Part shown: piece after piece, positions 17,309-26,553 of the stretch
Layout: every line of letters starts with the position of its first letter
Numbering within the stretch: position 1 is the stretch's first letter
Source: Sporomusa sp. KB1
GTDB taxonomy: Bacteria; Bacillota; Negativicutes; Sporomusales; Sporomusaceae
Direction: 5' to 3'
DNA: 64,000 nt
Assembly (NCBI RefSeq): GCF_007830295.1
Contig: NZ_VLKC01000002.1
Coordinates: 2,762,204 to 2,826,203 of the forward strand
Position numbers and translations under genes: made by a program
Notes under the pieces: generated by a model
What the model was told of the DNA's origin: nothing
Databases searched by the model: none
What the model saw: only the letters and a program-made list of their open reading frames with translations

Positions 17309-17395
17309 GATAGTCAGGAGTGCGCAGACACAAGTATTAGCATAGCCTGCTGCTTGTTGAAATCATATGGGCGTACAAGTAAGGAGGGGCATACA

Positions 17396-19141
17396 ATGCC
17401 GGAACATATTACGCAGGAGTTTCTTGACTTAATTAAGCTCCCAAATACTAACGCGCAACGGCTTAACTACCTGTTTGTTATGCCGCGTATTGTTACAAGA
17501 GATGATATGACGTATCAACTGCCTTATGGCTTTTGCATGGTTTCATCCGCACTAAAAGCTTCAGGGCGCAGTGTGTTTACACTAAATTTGAACTATAAGG
17601 CGAATCCATATGATCTGTTGCGTCAGACCATTATTGACAATTCAATTGATGTTATTGCCACCGGCGGACTGAGTGGTCAGTATTCTCCTCTGAAGGAGAT
17701 AACAGATACGGCAAAATCTGCAAAACCTGACGTAATTACGATTGTCGGCGGCGGAATTATAACAGCAGAGCCCGATGTCGCAATGGAAGCTCTTGGAACA
17801 GCAGATTACGGTATTATAGGCGAAGGCGAAATCACTATTAATGCGCTTGCGTATGCGCTGGAAAACGACGAGGATGTCGAGCTGGTTGAAGGAGTAGTAC
17901 TACGTGATGGTACAGTTGCTCCGATGCGTCCCGAAGTTGCCAACCTAGACCTTCTGCCGTTTCCGGACTATGACGGGTTTGAATATAGCTTGCTGCTGCG
18001 GGATAAATTGTTCAGTAGCTCAGGTGTGAATGAAAAAACCGCAGTAGTTACTACAGGGCGATCCTGTCCGTTTAATTGTACGTTTTGTTTTCATTCAAGC
18101 GGTAAAAAATATCGTAGACGTTCAATTGACAATATATTTCAGGAAATCAATTGGATCATATCTAACTACGACATCAAGTACATAATGTTTGTCGATGAAT
18201 TATTCGTAAAAGACAAAAAATTTGTTAAAGAAGTAACGGATCGTATTAAGAAATTCAATGTTAAGTATTGGGTTCAGACGCGCGTGGATATGATTACAAA
18301 AGAAATATTACAGATGCTAAAAGACAGCGGCTGTTATGAAATAACTTATGGTGTTGAAAGTGCGGATAATAATATCCTGAAGAGTATGCAGAAGAATATT
18401 ACGGTGGAGCAAATTGAACGAGCGTTCAATCTATCTTGCGAAGTCGGACTTCCCTCAAAGGGATATATCATCTTCGGTGACTTGGCGGAAACCGCTGAAA
18501 CGATTAACAATTCCCTGAACTGGTGGAGAGCGCATCCAGAGTTTGACATAAGGTTATGGTGGATTTTAACGTTCCCAGGATCACATTTATACAAAGTAGC
18601 TTGCGAGCGCGGCCTAATATCTGATCGTGTTCAGTACTTGAAGAATAACGATACGCAATTGAACATATCCAAAATGTCCGATGAGCAATATTGGGAAATG
18701 GTCAAGAAAGTTGAACTGTTCCAAACACTGTCGACAGCTGGTGTTAATATTAATTTTGATGATATTGACGATATTGCAGGTGCAATCGGCAAAAACCTCA
18801 ATCACTTGCTCAAAAAACATGAAATCGCGATTTGGCCGGCAACATTAGACATAATTATAGTGCTTAACTATATATCATCAGCATTTGTCAGTAGTAATAA
18901 AGTGGTCTTTATTAACGCAAACCCGAATGATTCGTATGTCTTGGGTATCGAACGCTTTGGCAAAAGGGTATATACGCCCGATGAAATTTTAGCTAACAGT
19001 GACGTTGACACAGTGCTCTACGCTTTTGGTCATAGAAGTTCACATAAGGTTTATGCTCAGATTAGCAAAATGATAAAAACCCAATACCCAAAAGTAAGAC
19101 AAATGATAAATATTTCTGAATTGTTGAAGAAGGTTATATGA
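17396..19141 (+). CDS. B12-binding radical SAM enzyme, tandem paralogue
   Basis: The same architecture as the gene before it: MPEHITQEFLDLIKLPN at the start, GGGIITAEPDVAMEAL, RSCPFNCTFCFHSSGKKYRR as cluster motif, and the tail HEIAIWPATLDIIIVLN with VFINANPNDSYVLGIERFG. The start at ATG 17396 has AAGGAGGGG upstream; a longer frame from 17354 has none. The ATGA overlap with the glycosyltransferase at 19138 shows translational coupling. Strong conservation between copies and shared N-terminus indicate a recent duplication. Confidence 0.85.
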   Translation: MPEHITQEFLDLIKLPNTNAQRLNYLFVMPRIVTRDDMTYQLPYGFCMVSSALKASGRSVFTLNLNYKANPYDLLRQTIIDNSIDVIATGGLSGQYSPLKEITDTAKSAKPDVITIVGGGIITAEPDVAMEALGTADYGIIGEGEITINALAYALENDEDVELVEGVVLRDGTVAPMRPEVANLDLLPFPDYDGFEYSLLLRDKLFSSSGVNEKTAVVTTGRSCPFNCTFCFHSSGKKYRRRSIDNIFQEINWIISNYDIKYIMFVDELFVKDKKFVKEVTDRIKKFNVKYWVQTRVDMITKEILQMLKDSGCYEITYGVESADNNILKSMQKNITVEQIERAFNLSCEVGLPSKGYIIFGDLAETAETINNSLNWWRAHPEFDIRLWWILTFPGSHLYKVACERGLISDRVQYLKNNDTQLNISKMSDEQYWEMVKKVELFQTLSTAGVNINFDDIDDIAGAIGKNLNHLLKKHEIAIWPATLDIIIVLNYISSAFVSSNKVVFINANPNDSYVLGIERFGKRVYTPDEILANSDVDTVLYAFGHRSSHKVYAQISKMIKTQYPKVRQMINISELLKKVI

Positions 19142-20190
19142 ATATACTCCACTTAGCTGCGCATATGGGAGATGGTGCAGGGAAGGCAATCGGTGGGTTG
19201 GCGATTCTTGGGAACAAATCCGGCAAAGATACTCATCGTATTCTTCTCTTGGACGAACCACGTAAAACAAACCATATTAACCGCTGTTGTGCTGCAGGGA
19301 TTGAAGTTTTGCCAAGGGATTCGGCGGAGTTTGCAATAAATGAAGCTGACGTTGTCGTTCTTAGTTGGTGGGGCAGCCCAACCATGGACATGTTTCTGCG
19401 CGAATTCCCGAATATTCCATGCCGAGTTATGCTTTGGACGCATAAGAACGGCTTTTACGATCCTCCGCTCTCAGACGCGCTTGTCCGCTCGTGTGACAGA
19501 TTGCTTGTCACTTCACCGCTGACACTTGAAAATCCGGTATGGAGTGATGGTACGCTAGTGTATGGTTTCGGTGATTTCGCACCAGAAAAAATTCCGCCTA
19601 AAACTGACTATTCGCTCAACAGCGATTCGTTTGTAATCGGTTACGTTGGAATGCCGAGTTACAAACGCTTTTCACACAATGCTCTCGATTATATGAGCAA
19701 GACTATATCAATGATTCCTGATGCCGTTTTCATCTTGTCCGGCGAGTATTCTGACGAATTCAAGTCTGATATTACATTGACGGGGGTGGAAGATAAAGTA
19801 AAATTACTCGGTTGGACGAACGATGTCCTTGGCCTACTTCGAACATTTGACGTTTTTGGGTATCTTCTGCGGTCAGATTCGTCGGCAACGACGGAGAACT
19901 CTGTGCTGGAAGCTATGGCGGCTGGATTACCCGTTGTGATGGCTCGCAAACCGGTTGGGAAGTATCTAATTGGAGATGGAGCGGGCTTTCTCGCGGATTC
20001 TCCTGAGGAGTATGCGAATAATCTGTTGCGGCTTTATGAAAGTGAGGACTTACGGCGTAGTGTCGGACAAGTTGCGAGAAAACATATTTTAGTAAGCTGC
20101 AACGCTTCGGATAACTTGAATCGCTTTAATGAAGCGTGTCTTAAGGTTGTTGAAAAACAAAAATATATTCACAAATTTGGAGGATTTTAA
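19138..20190 (+). CDS. GT4-type glycosyltransferase
   Basis: A GT-B fold transferase of 350 residues. The C-terminal half has IGYVGMPSYKRFSHNALDYM, VKLLGWTNDVLGLLRTFDVF, and the sugar-nucleotide site TTENSVLEAMAAGLPVV. The N-terminal half begins MNILHLAAHMGDGAGKAIGGL. It overlaps the preceding radical SAM gene by 4 bp and runs to within a base of the next start, so it belongs to the same operon. The donor sugar is unknown; the CDP-sugar made upstream is a candidate. Confidence 0.87.
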   Translation: MNILHLAAHMGDGAGKAIGGLAILGNKSGKDTHRILLLDEPRKTNHINRCCAAGIEVLPRDSAEFAINEADVVVLSWWGSPTMDMFLREFPNIPCRVMLWTHKNGFYDPPLSDALVRSCDRLLVTSPLTLENPVWSDGTLVYGFGDFAPEKIPPKTDYSLNSDSFVIGYVGMPSYKRFSHNALDYMSKTISMIPDAVFILSGEYSDEFKSDITLTGVEDKVKLLGWTNDVLGLLRTFDVFGYLLRSDSSATTENSVLEAMAAGLPVVMARKPVGKYLIGDGAGFLADSPEEYANNLLRLYESEDLRRSVGQVARKHILVSCNASDNLNRFNEACLKVVEKQKYIHKFGGF

Positions 20191-20191
20191 G

Positions 20192-21226
20192 ATGGCTGTT
20201 ATCGCGCCGAGCTATGATACGAATAGAACCAACCTTAGGGATGTTATACCACTTGCAAGCCCATATACCGTCCAAATTGAACCTACGCGTATGTGTAATC
20301 TCAGGTGCTTTTTCTGTATGCATCATAGCCGTGGTACAAGCAATGATCTTTTGAAAGAAAGCGGTTTCAAGCTTGCACATATGGATATGGATTTATACGA
20401 TAAAATTGTGCGTGATATCATGGGCTTTTCCGAACCACCAAAGATGATCAATTTTTGCGGAATCGGGGAACCGCTTATGAATCCGCGATTTGGTGAGATG
20501 ATTAGACGCATGCGAGCGGCTGGATACTCAGGACGTATCATCACCTACACAAACGGTGTGCTGTTGAGACCGGCAGTTGTAGACGAGCTGACGAGCAGCG
20601 GCTTATCTGAAATTCGTATTTCTTTGAACGGCTTAACGGCGGAAAAGTACAAGCAGGTGACTGGAGTTACATTAAGTATGGAGGAATACGTAGAAAATAT
20701 ACGTTACTTATATAAGCATAAGAAAGACACGAAAATATATATAAAAATAATAGAAAACCTATTTGAACAGGACGACGACAGAGAAAAGTTTTACCAGATG
20801 TTTGGCGACATTTCTGATGTAATGTATGTGGAAAACATTATACAACTGCAGCGTCAAATGAAAGATTATGGCGGTATAACGGAAGAAAACTATAAAAATG
20901 TATTCAACGAACCGATGTCGCGTAACTGGAAAACCTGTGCGTGCATGTTCTATCAAACCCATATAGATGCGGACGGCTATGTATTCTTTTGTGTATCGCT
21001 GGGTAATCCAAGTAAATATGCAATCGGCAACATCAATGACGATGCTCTTGTTGAAATATGGAATGGCAGGAATCGCTTAAAAGCGCTCTGCACGAACTTG
21101 CGTAACGGTTCGGATAGTATACCGATGTGCGTTGATTGCGAAGGAAAATACGATATCATTTCAGACGAAGAATATCTTGACGACAGCAGCGAAATGTTGC
21201 TTGACCGTCTGCCGGGTTGTGACTGA
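20192..21226 (+). CDS. Radical SAM/SPASM protein, third copy
   Basis: The ATG at 20192 follows GGAGGATTTTAAG. It has the cluster motif CNLRCFFC at about residue 35, then FCGIGEPLMNPRFG and a SPASM part CACMFYQTHIDADGYVFFC with CVDC near the end. The tail EEYLDDSSEMLLDRL is shared with the next gene. It is more like the following copy than the pair at 8-10 kb, so two subfamilies of SPASM enzymes exist in this island. Confidence 0.86.
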   Translation: MAVIAPSYDTNRTNLRDVIPLASPYTVQIEPTRMCNLRCFFCMHHSRGTSNDLLKESGFKLAHMDMDLYDKIVRDIMGFSEPPKMINFCGIGEPLMNPRFGEMIRRMRAAGYSGRIITYTNGVLLRPAVVDELTSSGLSEIRISLNGLTAEKYKQVTGVTLSMEEYVENIRYLYKHKKDTKIYIKIIENLFEQDDDREKFYQMFGDISDVMYVENIIQLQRQMKDYGGITEENYKNVFNEPMSRNWKTCACMFYQTHIDADGYVFFCVSLGNPSKYAIGNINDDALVEIWNGRNRLKALCTNLRNGSDSIPMCVDCEGKYDIISDEEYLDDSSEMLLDRLPGCD

Positions 21227-21251: not shown

Positions 21252-22277
21252 ATGGCAATAATTCAGCCGAGCTTTGATAATAAGCGTCAGAATCTACGAG
21301 ATATTATTCCGCTCAGTGCTCCGTTCCACATCGGGATTGAACCGACGCGATTTTGCAACTTTAAATGTTTTTTTTGTCAGCAGTCAACCAGAGGTGATGC
21401 GGATGATCTATTTGTCAAAAAAGGACAGGCGATTCAGCATATGAATTTTGAGTTGTACAAGAAAATTATCAACGATATTATGGATTTGCCTGAACAGCCG
21501 AAAAAAATACAGCTTGCGGGAATGGGTGAGCCGATCCTCAATCCTGAATTAGGAAAGATGATAAGGTATCTCCGGTCTGCAGGCTTTAGTGGACGCATTA
21601 GCACATACACCAATGGCATGGCTTTAACACCGCAAATAGCCGACGAATTAGCCGACAGCGGTTTAACCAGCCTGCAAGTGTCGGTGTATGGTATAACGGC
21701 AGAAGATTTTAAAAGCCTTGCGGGCACTTCGGTTGATGTGGATCAGTATGTCAAAAATATTCAATATATGTTTGAACATAAAAAATCTATCCAAATCCGC
21801 CTGAAGACAACGGATGACGTTGTAACGACAGAGGTCAAACGTAAAGCATTTTTTGATATGTTTGATGGAGTTTGTGATCAGATATTCGTGGAACATATTA
21901 TCAATATTCCCAACCAGATGGGAAGGCTACGAGTTAAAGCACGCAACATTACACAGTATAGCGAAGAACTTGAAAGCTACCGCGCTATATGTCCCTGGAT
22001 GTTCTATCAATCCCATATCAATATTGATGGAGATGTGTTCTTTTGTGATATTCTTGCTAAGCCTAAAGAATATGCGATTGGCAATATAAAAGACAGTTCT
22101 TTTGTAAGCATTTGGAATGGTGCACAGAGAAGTGAATTGCTTTGCACGGGGTTAAAATGTGGTCAGAATAGCATCACGCAGTGCATTGACTGCGATGACA
22201 GATTTTCTATGACTGCTCCCGAGGAGTACCTTGATGATTGCCGTGAAGAACTATTGGAGAGGTTGCAACAACAATAA
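21252..22277 (+). CDS. Radical SAM/SPASM protein, fourth copy
   Basis: 341 residues with CNFKCFFC, LAGMGEPILNPELG, and SPASM segments ICPWMFYQSHINIDGDVFFC and CIDC. It shares its N-terminus (AIIQPSFDNKRQNLRDIIPL) and acidic tail (EEYLDDCREELLERL) with the previous gene, its tandem paralogue. ATG with AAAGGAGGG upstream. Last gene of the sugar/radical SAM run; no terminator hairpin is evident before the protease gene. Confidence 0.86.
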   Translation: MAIIQPSFDNKRQNLRDIIPLSAPFHIGIEPTRFCNFKCFFCQQSTRGDADDLFVKKGQAIQHMNFELYKKIINDIMDLPEQPKKIQLAGMGEPILNPELGKMIRYLRSAGFSGRISTYTNGMALTPQIADELADSGLTSLQVSVYGITAEDFKSLAGTSVDVDQYVKNIQYMFEHKKSIQIRLKTTDDVVTTEVKRKAFFDMFDGVCDQIFVEHIINIPNQMGRLRVKARNITQYSEELESYRAICPWMFYQSHINIDGDVFFCDILAKPKEYAIGNIKDSSFVSIWNGAQRSELLCTGLKCGQNSITQCIDCDDRFSMTAPEEYLDDCREELLERLQQQ

Positions 22278-23597: not shown

Positions 23598-24899
23598 TTA
23601 CTCAATTCCTGCTAGCTTCTCTACCGCATATAGTGGCAAATTTAGCAGCCATTCTTCTTTTTTGTAGTCCGCCATTGAGGTGCGGACGGAGATTTTGGGA
23701 TTGAACTTATCTCGATAAGTTTTTAAACTTTTTGCCTGCAAATTGATTTCAGCTTTGACTTCCAGGGGGATTATAGTATTGCCGTTGTCGATTACAAAAT
23801 CGATTTCCGCACTACCACGGTCATTTGTCCAGTAATAAGGCTCGATCCCTTTCAGCGTTTTGAGTTGCTGTAATACATATTGTTCTGTCAACGCGCCCTT
23901 GAATTCCTTGAACATTTTGTTGCCGTCAAGCAGGGTATTTTGCTTTAAACGTACCATACAGGAGAGCAGTCCTACATCAAGAAAAAACAGCTTGAAGGTT
24001 TTCAAATCCTCATATGCTTTCAGCGGCAAACTGGGAGCTGTTACACGATATACCTTATGTACAAGGCCACAGTCGATCAGCCAGAGCATTGCCAGCTCGT
24101 AATCCTTTGCCCGAGCACCTTCCTTAATCAGGCCATAGATGAATTTTTTGTTTTCCTTGGTTAGCTGTGATGGAATACTGTTCCAGAGCATACGGATACG
24201 CGGCACAACATCGTGGGGAGCATGCTTTGAAAAATCTTGTTCGTAAGCGGCAAGGATACGCTGCTGAATTTCCCGTGCTTCATTAAAGTCCATGTTCTCC
24301 GCAAAGTTCAAAACAGCCTCAGGCATACCACCTACATAGTAGTAATATTTGAGCATGTCGATGTATGTTTGCTTGAAGGTTGTTGCCATTTCAAAATCGT
24401 CATTTTGAAGCAACTCGATAAATTGTTTTTTCCCCATTGCCATTAAAAATTCGGTGAAAGACAGCGGATATAAGTCCATGAAATCCACCTTGCCCACGGG
24501 GAAGGATGTGCCGTGATGTAGCGCCACACCGAGTAAGGAGCCCGCACAAACAATATGATACTGCGGTGCATTTTCATTAAAGTATTTTAGTGCGGTCAAT
24601 GCTTTGGGTACTTCCTGTATTTCATCAAAAATAAGCAGTGTGTTTTCGGGATTGATTTTCCGTCCGGCATACAGTTCCAGTCCGGTAATAATACGCTCCA
24701 CATCAAGATTGACATCAAACAAATCTTTCATGCGTTGACTATTGTCAAAGCTGATATATACTTGATTTTCATAAGCGGTTTGTCCGAATTCTTTCATCAG
24801 CCATGTTTTGCCGACCTGCCTTGCACCGCGGATAATCAGCGGTTTTTTGTTCTTTTTTGATTTCCATTTATATAACACTTCTATTGCTGTACGGTACAT
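23598..24899 (-). CDS. AAA ATPase with DUF4143 and PD-(D/E)xK-like C-terminus
   Basis: The start is taken at the ATG at 24899 (MYRTAIEVLYKW) with GAGGTG 6 nt upstream. It has Walker A GARQVGKT at 25-32 and Walker B LLIFDEIQE at 88-96. A DUF4143 region ends in SAEIDFVIDNG...IPLEVKAE, a nuclease-like PD-(D/E)xK pattern. Such ATPases are widespread in bacteria and archaea, often as single genes within accessory DNA; their role is not established. Single gene with no operon partners. Confidence 0.85.
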   Translation of the reverse strand: MYRTAIEVLYKWKSKKNKKPLIIRGARQVGKTWLMKEFGQTAYENQVYISFDNSQRMKDLFDVNLDVERIITGLELYAGRKINPENTLLIFDEIQEVPKALTALKYFNENAPQYHIVCAGSLLGVALHHGTSFPVGKVDFMDLYPLSFTEFLMAMGKKQFIELLQNDDFEMATTFKQTYIDMLKYYYYVGGMPEAVLNFAENMDFNEAREIQQRILAAYEQDFSKHAPHDVVPRIRMLWNSIPSQLTKENKKFIYGLIKEGARAKDYELAMLWLIDCGLVHKVYRVTAPSLPLKAYEDLKTFKLFFLDVGLLSCMVRLKQNTLLDGNKMFKEFKGALTEQYVLQQLKTLKGIEPYYWTNDRGSAEIDFVIDNGNTIIPLEVKAEINLQAKSLKTYRDKFNPKISVRTSMADYKKEEWLLNLPLYAVEKLAGIE

Positions 24900-24949
24900 A
24901 CACATCACCTCACAAATCGTAACGATAATATTATAATGCACAACCACAT

Positions 24950-25231: not shown

Positions 25232-25996
25232 TTAATTCCCCAAAGAAATTGCTTTTGCCATTTCATTAAACGCCAGCAAAAATTGCTGCTCTGAAACTGT
25301 TTTATTTTTCATGTAATCGCAAAAATACTTCCAGGAATCCTCTTCATTTAGAATACCGTCTTTTGTCCGAATATGTGAAAAAAGCCCTGTTTTAATATGC
25401 CTTGAACCGAACGCACGCAGTGATATAATCTTCACAAATCGCGGATTTGGACTCATATTAATTTTAATAGAGCGGTAATCATGATGACTATAATGCAAGG
25501 AAGCTAATGTTTTAGCCGAGATTCTTATCATAAAATCCAATAACAGCTGATTGGCTATCGGCTTTGCAAAACGGCACCACACGTGATAGCCGCGTCCACT
25601 TTTAACATTGACGGTCTCTATGCCATGTTTTCCAAGATGCTGTTGTAAGTAGTCTACGGCAAGCTCTATTTCCGGTATAAGCTCGTTATTATTCTGTTTA
25701 TAGTTATTGTCTATATTAAAACAAAGCGTGTTGTTTGCCGTTTCATCAAAATAAAGGCAGACATTATAAGCTTGGTTTACATGTCCTTGCAGCAATCTTT
25801 GTTTATGATCCTCTGAGACATGTAACAGCCTGTATTTATGGATAAAGTTGTTTTCCATCTGAACATAATCTAATGTCGCATCATCTGCTGTCAGTTTCTT
25901 GATAAACTCAAAACCGTAATTTTTATTTTCTATTTTTACTTTATCTTTACACATGGTTTGATAGAATTCATTTAGAAGTTCTACTCTTGTATCCAT
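25232..25996 (-). CDS. Archaeo-eukaryotic primase (PriS-like) domain protein with altered catalytic positions
   Basis: 254 residues with three segments that line up in order with archaeal/eukaryotic primase small subunits: FNIDNN at 93-98 (motif I, normally DxD), SGRGYHVW at 133-140 (motif II), and LRAFGSRHIKTGL at 193-205 (PriS pattern R-x-P-G-S-x-H-x-K-T-G). The first Asp of motif I is Asn, and the Asp usually found about ten residues before the GSxH motif is not seen (Val188 or Asn184 nearby). Catalysis may thus be lost or changed. Its start overlaps the upstream nucleotidase gene by 16 bp with GAGGAG before it, so the two are coupled. No helicase, ligase or phage genes are adjacent. Confidence 0.62.
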   Translation of the reverse strand: MDTRVELLNEFYQTMCKDKVKIENKNYGFEFIKKLTADDATLDYVQMENNFIHKYRLLHVSEDHKQRLLQGHVNQAYNVCLYFDETANNTLCFNIDNNYKQNNNELIPEIELAVDYLQQHLGKHGIETVNVKSGRGYHVWCRFAKPIANQLLLDFMIRISAKTLASLHYSHHDYRSIKINMSPNPRFVKIISLRAFGSRHIKTGLFSHIRTKDGILNEEDSWKYFCDYMKNKTVSEQQFLLAFNEMAKAISLGN

Positions 25997-26553
25997 TGTT
26001 TAATCTCCTCAAAGCGGGTAAACCCTTTTGCTGTTTGGGAAACAACCGAACTATGCTTGGCCATAAGGGGATAATATATCTGGATGCCATAGCGTTCACC
26101 GTAGGTAATATTTAATAAATCATCATCAATTAAATATGGGACATCCCATAATTTACAAAAAACAATTTTATTTAGGGCCGTAATTAAGTAATCATAGGGA
26201 ATATGATTATCCTGGAGCCATTTTTTAGTACATTCCCCAGTCAAACGCAAATTTCGCTTGGTGCAAATAACGATTTTCCAGCCATTAGCTTTTAACCAAT
26301 TCATAAACTGAACGCCCTCCGGGTTAGCTTGTGCCAAAGGATAACATTGCTCATGGATACGATGACGAAAATCAGAAAACTTAGTTGTCAAAAATTCACT
26401 TTCTGCAAAAACGTCGTGTTTTACCAGATCAAGATAGTTATCAAATTCTTCAAGGGACAAGCCATAGGAAGCTTTAAATGTAAACGTAGATTTTGCTAAG
26501 GTATCCGAAAAATTATTTAACACATTGTCAATATCCACAGCGATTACTTTCAT
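25981..26553 (-). CDS. HAD-superfamily 5'(3')-deoxyribonucleotidase-like protein
   Basis: 190 residues of the NT5C-like HAD group: motif I AVDIDNVLNN at the N-terminus (nucleophile Asp and acid Asp), motif II in VICTKRN, and motif IV YLIDDDL. The family removes phosphate from nucleotides or similar small phosphates. GAGAGGTAGG precedes the ATG. It overlaps the primase-like gene, which suggests a joint role with nucleotides or nucleic acid ends; this is inference. Confidence 0.8.
   Translation of the reverse strand: MKVIAVDIDNVLNNFSDTLAKSTFTFKASYGLSLEEFDNYLDLVKHDVFAESEFLTTKFSDFRHRIHEQCYPLAQANPEGVQFMNWLKANGWKIVICTKRNLRLTGECTKKWLQDNHIPYDYLITALNKIVFCKLWDVPYLIDDDLLNITYGERYGIQIYYPLMAKHSSVVSQTAKGFTRFEEIKQWIQE

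Follow-up and report, generated by a model that had tools for sequence, protein, structure and literature searches.

The window, a 64,000-nucleotide stretch of the Sporomusa sp. KB1 genome, contains on its minus strand two overlapping reading frames, the first encoding a deoxyribonucleotidase-like HAD phosphatase with intact catalytic residues (25981..26553, minus; 190 aa) and the second an AEP-fold protein that we call the NxD pseudo-Prim-Pol (25232..25996, minus; 254 aa). The overlap, already seen in the original prediction for this locus, spans 16 nt (25981..25996, minus), with the AEP start codon lying within the 3' end of the HAD gene. The nearest named record is from Sporomusa silvacetica, at 96% identity at the protein level. 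Pfam assigns the AEP-like protein to PF22548 (AEP-TOTE) with an E-value of 1.9e-4 and 21.5 bits, below the cut-off of 27, and gives the HAD protein a weak Hydrolase/HAD_2 match.

Residue functions were mapped from human PriS (PMC4434180), the human sequence having been checked against PDB. In that enzyme S160, R162, H166, K318 and H324 contact the nucleotide, D109 and D111 hold the metals, and D306 partly holds one of them (PMC4434180). Motif I of the window protein reads CFN-I-D-N, its codons N94-I95-D96 (25709..25717, minus) occupying the place of the D-x-D of active AEPs. Motif II, SGRGYHVW (residues 133-140; 25577..25600, minus), is the triphosphate-binding loop and matches S160, R162 and H166 of PriS. 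The motif III position, D or E in active AEPs, is N180 (25457..25459, minus), and the segment from R194 to H200 (RAFGSRH; 25397..25417, minus), within residues 192-204 (SLRAFGSRHIKTG), corresponds to K318 through H324 with the same six-residue spacing.

Fold and nearest relatives of the AEP-like protein

An AlphaFold2 model of the AEP-like protein, for which the window protein was aligned to its relatives in other genomes, has a pLDDT of 90.5 and, as a predicted structure, confirms the AEP superfamily fold: an N-terminal alpha/beta module and an RRM-like core. The top fold match is the Prim-Pol domain of the Marinitoga protein MsCAPP (7nqd/7p9j; VIA Z 22.7, rmsd 2.7, 207 aligned residues, 14% identity), and the common fold covers nearly the whole NxD protein; Prim-PolC (Z 13.9), LigD polymerase (13.7) and human/yeast Pri1 (11.8) match more weakly. 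Because of this ranking, the nearest solved relative is taken to be a CAPP/TOTE-type Prim-Pol and not PriS. The PriS profile (PF01896), searched against the window's own genome at E 1e-3, returned no match, and four archaeal controls did match. The PriS-like primase domain originally predicted is thus, by its modelled structure, an AEP domain with the RRM-like core, and the attribution to PriS itself gives way to the closer CAPP/TOTE relatives. Run against solved structures, a profile of the NxD family by itself yielded chance hits only, and CAPP was reached with the TOTE profile. The AEP model also aligns with PDB 2atz (Helicobacter pylori HP0184, function unassigned; Z 11.7, 160 residues, rmsd 4.4); with a Z within the Pri1 range of this model comparison, HP0184 may be an unrecognised AEP-like fold.

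CAPPs resemble the family in motif II (GYHIW against GYHVW), but they are active primase-polymerases with D177-x-D179 (PMC8211822), whereas the NxD family has N-x-D, has lost the third acid, and carries neither the TPR nor the C-terminal domain of CAPP. No cas genes were recognised when the open reading frames neighbouring the NxD copies were read by eye. The TOTE family PF22548 is the sole Pfam family to match all 11 NxD members scanned, with a significant profile match around motif II; its cut-off is passed only by the copy at L095 (30 bits). TOTE systems are composed of TPR, OB, TBP and effector parts (PMC12458937), and their AEPs keep DFD, mostly within reading frames some 440-1060 aa long, whereas the NxD protein is stand-alone and HAD-paired; TOTE AEPs of the phylum keep D-x-D. 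The primase domain of the UG10 (DRT) reverse transcriptases is also similar, the PADLOC model RT_UG10_large matching residues 109-202 of the copy at L022 at 3.5e-5, but again the NxD protein stands alone, without a reverse transcriptase. An AEP family with a fixed N-x-D or with HAD pairing is undescribed in the literature covered, a partial set without the Aravind, Iyer et al. 2022 TOTE paper.

Conservation of the altered active site

The NxD family was found in 17 copies in 14 Bacillota genomes, of which 10 come from the 380 genomes of the class, one from a sample of the phylum and three more from that genome's order. All 17 copies have a full-length reading frame. Set against the superfamily definition of motif I as hhhDhD/E, motif II as sxH and motif III as hD/E (PMC10345425), the family agrees in the second motif alone. 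Motif I is N-x-D throughout, N94 and D96 both being invariant; motif II is SG(R/H)GYHxW in every copy, with S133, G134, G136, Y137, H138 and W140 invariant; position 180 is Asn in 13 copies and Thr in 4, with no acid at positions 178-182 in any of them; and R194 and H200 never vary. The loss of the first motif I Asp and that of the third Asp, both picked out from the window alone in the original prediction, are shared by all 17 copies.

An internal reference is available in genome G307, where an intact TOTE-type AEP (598 aa; PF22548 E 7.5e-18) is encoded two genes downstream of the pair at L023. Its motifs FLCFDVD, SGGKGYHIW and IHVEIRP align column for column with TLCFNID, SGRGYHVW and IKINMSP of the NxD family, gap-free at motif I, and position 180 was assigned to motif III because it is aligned with the E of IHVEIRP. 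Misalignment of motif I was considered and rejected: residue D84 close by varies from copy to copy (D, N or R), the intact AEP aligns ungapped, and none of the 17 homologues has an intact DxD. The triphosphate grip (Ser133, His138, Arg194, His200) and Asp96 are thus kept and the other two metal ligands lost in every copy; from the invariant E-site residues, nucleotide binding by the AEP-like protein is likely.

Loss of catalytic acids might be expected of a former primase decaying without function, an explanation that is scarcely credible here and is contradicted by the selection data. The dN/dS of the AEP-like gene is 0.07-0.23, much like that of the HAD gene, the N94 codon is AAT as well as AAC across copies, and every frame is full-length. 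Because dN/dS is low and N94 has been kept through synonymous change, the gene is not decaying, and to judge from its sequences the family is a maintained pseudo-Prim-Pol. The strict purifying selection on D96, the triphosphate residues and N94 exceeds the needs of a scaffold, and could instead reflect an N-x-D site that is catalytic with altered chemistry; it might, for example, yield a short or cyclic nucleotide, or attach a nucleotide to some protein, perhaps the HAD partner, with the product then degraded by the HAD protein. We regard this as very unlikely, as two acids, the leading Asp of motif I and the one of motif III, are gone in 17/17 and equivalent mutations abolish the activity of tested AEPs: loss of activity follows mutation of motif I or III acids (PMC10345425), and was found for the AxA mutant of MpCAPP (PMC8211822) and the LIL mutant of PolpTN2 (PMC5862659).

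The HAD partner and a proposed mechanism

Whether a nucleotidase always accompanies the AEP-like gene had been posed as a question for survey, and the answer is consistent: a HAD gene lies directly upstream in 17/17 copies, the overlap is kept in all copies read, and a HAD profile searched over the class recovers the AEP-bearing genomes, and in addition a fragment at the end of a contig in G007, a 58%-complete genome. The AEP and HAD trees are broadly congruent, with several HAD forks weakly supported. The HAD motifs DxD, T/S, K and DD (D7, D9, T98, K129, D143, D144) are intact in the window and 13 other copies. The HAD gene at L093 is interrupted where the assembly has a stretch of N, and the two copies in G775 (L094, L095) lack the nucleophile, with E or F for D7, as well as an intact motif IV DD. 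In one of these nucleophile-less G775 relatives (L095:7942-10239, minus, G775:C19) the HAD part follows a class I methyltransferase domain in a single fusion protein, and the NxD AEP gene lies downstream. Both partners in G775 look catalytically dead; phosphatase control cannot be the function there, since the HAD protein is without nucleophile and intact DD, and these copies argue that the pair can also act through binding alone.

The AlphaFold2 model of the HAD protein (pLDDT 91.7) has a helical cap as in deoxyribonucleotidases, and its best structural match is to the 5'(3')-deoxyribonucleotidases (NT5C; mdN/cdN, 3bwv), with a VIA Z of 15.0 for the deoxyribonucleotidase-like 3bwv and about 14 for human mdN/cdN, other HADs being nearly tied. 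Unlike NT5C, it is linked to a pseudo-Prim-Pol, and a sequence match to NT5C (PF06941) is rare, occurring in 1 of 12 HAD members (8.5e-4). Because other HADs follow closely in the fold search, the deoxyribonucleotidase substrate class is a lead only. In three divergent copies (L020:7444, L021:7131 and L026:9307, all minus) the HAD start seems to be ATA, followed by AAC or AAA, where others have ATG; a Shine-Dalgarno-like AAAGGAG stands upstream of the apparent ATA start in L020 and L026, and a standard gene caller would truncate such HADs past the DxD motif.

The account that we tentatively prefer is that the pseudo-Prim-Pol holds (d)NTP but does not polymerise, and that it regulates the HAD phosphatase or serves as its scaffold, the two forming a compact module of a pseudo-Prim-Pol and a putative deoxyribonucleotidase-type phosphatase. 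The E-site of the pseudo-Prim-Pol would hold a (d)NTP, perhaps at the end of a nucleic acid, and D96 would retain one divalent metal at most; with the metal A site lost, phosphodiester bond formation would be impossible and the protein could not polymerise. Whether the E-site is occupied or empty would be relayed to the HAD protein from the overlapping gene, which would hydrolyse a (d)NMP or a terminal phosphate under the control of this nucleotide sensor, and the output would probably be control of the nucleotide pool, either in homeostasis or in response to mobile elements. The gene overlap implies co-expression, not a complex. The core of the original prediction, a re-purposed AEP fold coupled to a nucleotidase, is upheld by the structure prediction, the 17 homologues and the strict co-occurrence with the HAD gene, and its suggestion of nucleotide-signal synthesis is not, two of the three metal ligands being absent from every copy.

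The defining feature of AEP enzymes is a set of three acidic residues, and a stable family in which the first is fixed as Asn and the third is lost would, if this is true, be a natural pseudo-polymerase; its nucleotide pocket, under strong selection, would show a route from a polymerase fold to a nucleotide sensor. It is possible, although we put it forward with more reserve, that AEPs without synthesis have become a (d)NTP or DNA-end sensor subunit, passed from one bacterium to another along with a phosphatase gene as a two-gene unit, one lineage having both proteins dead and acting by binding only. As a phosphatase always accompanies it, two small proteins suffice for a direct test of the idea.

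Genomic setting, spread and competing functions

Sulfotransferase and HprK-like genes, thought in the original prediction to share an operon with the pair, flank it only in three close Sporomusa genomes (G000, G006 and G007), and in G007 CysN/CysD-like genes separate the HAD gene and the sulfotransferase (L085, G007:C13). Sulfotransferase and HprK were therefore rejected as parts of the module. The CysN/CysD-like genes in L085 point to a sulfate-activation neighbourhood in the genus. The need for a second, active AEP was also rejected, a confident further TOTE-type AEP occurring in only 4 of the 14 pair-bearing genomes. Compared with a copy in a different family, the window shows a dS of 0.57, against 1.24 and 2.06 for same-genus copies, with codon usage outside the model; a dS lower across families than within the genus suggests horizontal transfer of the pair. 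Searches of phages, plasmids and IMG/VR found no AEP homologues, and two weak HAD matches in IMG/VR were rejected as pairs of the NxD/HAD family.

These patterns bear on whether the pair serves as a sensor in antiviral or mobile-element conflict, in which the AEP-like protein would recognise invader nucleic acid or a replication intermediate and bring about nucleotide depletion or growth arrest via the HAD protein or another partner. Its relatives are conflict-system AEPs (PF22548 TOTE, the UG10 RT-associated primase and CAPP), its spread is patchy (10/380 class genomes) with the low cross-family dS suggesting transfer, and two settings are suggestive: in G604 (L026, G604:C16) the pair sits in a defence island, surrounded by Wadjet JetD, an MNT-like protein (PDC-S09) and two BrxC/BrxD-family ATPases, with the HAD gene immediately preceded by a PbeA-like helicase, and in G307 what looks like a mobile element carries it alongside IstB/DnaC-type ATPase and SpoVG-like genes. 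The absence of replication and phage genes noted originally thus holds for the window neighbourhood and fails in G307, where such an ATPase and the intact AEP accompany the pair. Most genomes, however, have ordinary metabolic or flagellar neighbours (flagellar in G095 and G318, other metabolic genes elsewhere), no PADLOC model matches the window's pair, and the copies are missing from the phages, plasmids and IMG/VR searched, so that we consider a conflict role unlikely, if worth keeping in view. Nucleic-acid end repair, with the HAD protein removing 3'- or 5'-terminal phosphates while the AEP-like protein holds the DNA end, would amount to a LigD-like split of POL and phosphoesterase without synthesis. 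The HAD protein does match PHROG 415, annotated as polynucleotide kinase, at 1e-10 to 1e-13, and Pnkp1 very weakly, and the AEP fold matches LigD-Pol and Prim-PolC at Z of about 13-14; yet LigD-Pol exists to polymerise and its metal ligands are absent from the NxD family, no ligase, Ku or kinase genes were recognised by eye beside the copies, and the helical cap resembles that of deoxyribonucleotidases, all of which makes repair distinctly improbable.

Several neighbouring loci have features of their own. The intact TOTE/CAPP-type AEP of G307 (L023:831-2627, minus, G307:C39) has a weak ROS/MucR-like N-terminus plus an HTH. On an IMG/VR contig (L071:4920-5999), a gene for a short HAD protein similar to the partner precedes a phage AEP-like gene, and a large polymerase-like ORF is close by; this AEP has D-F-D but no His in its motif II (TGGKGFQMN), and falls outside the NxD family. 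In the window, a DUF4143 AAA ATPase lies just downstream of the pair (23598-24947, minus; PADLOC candidate PDC-S01, 1.2e-190). Farther along, two adjacent paralogous genes (20129-21226 and 21252-22277) read as radical SAM/SPASM-like proteins, and adjoin what appear to be a B12-binding-type radical SAM protein (17354-19141) and a glycosyltransferase-like gene.
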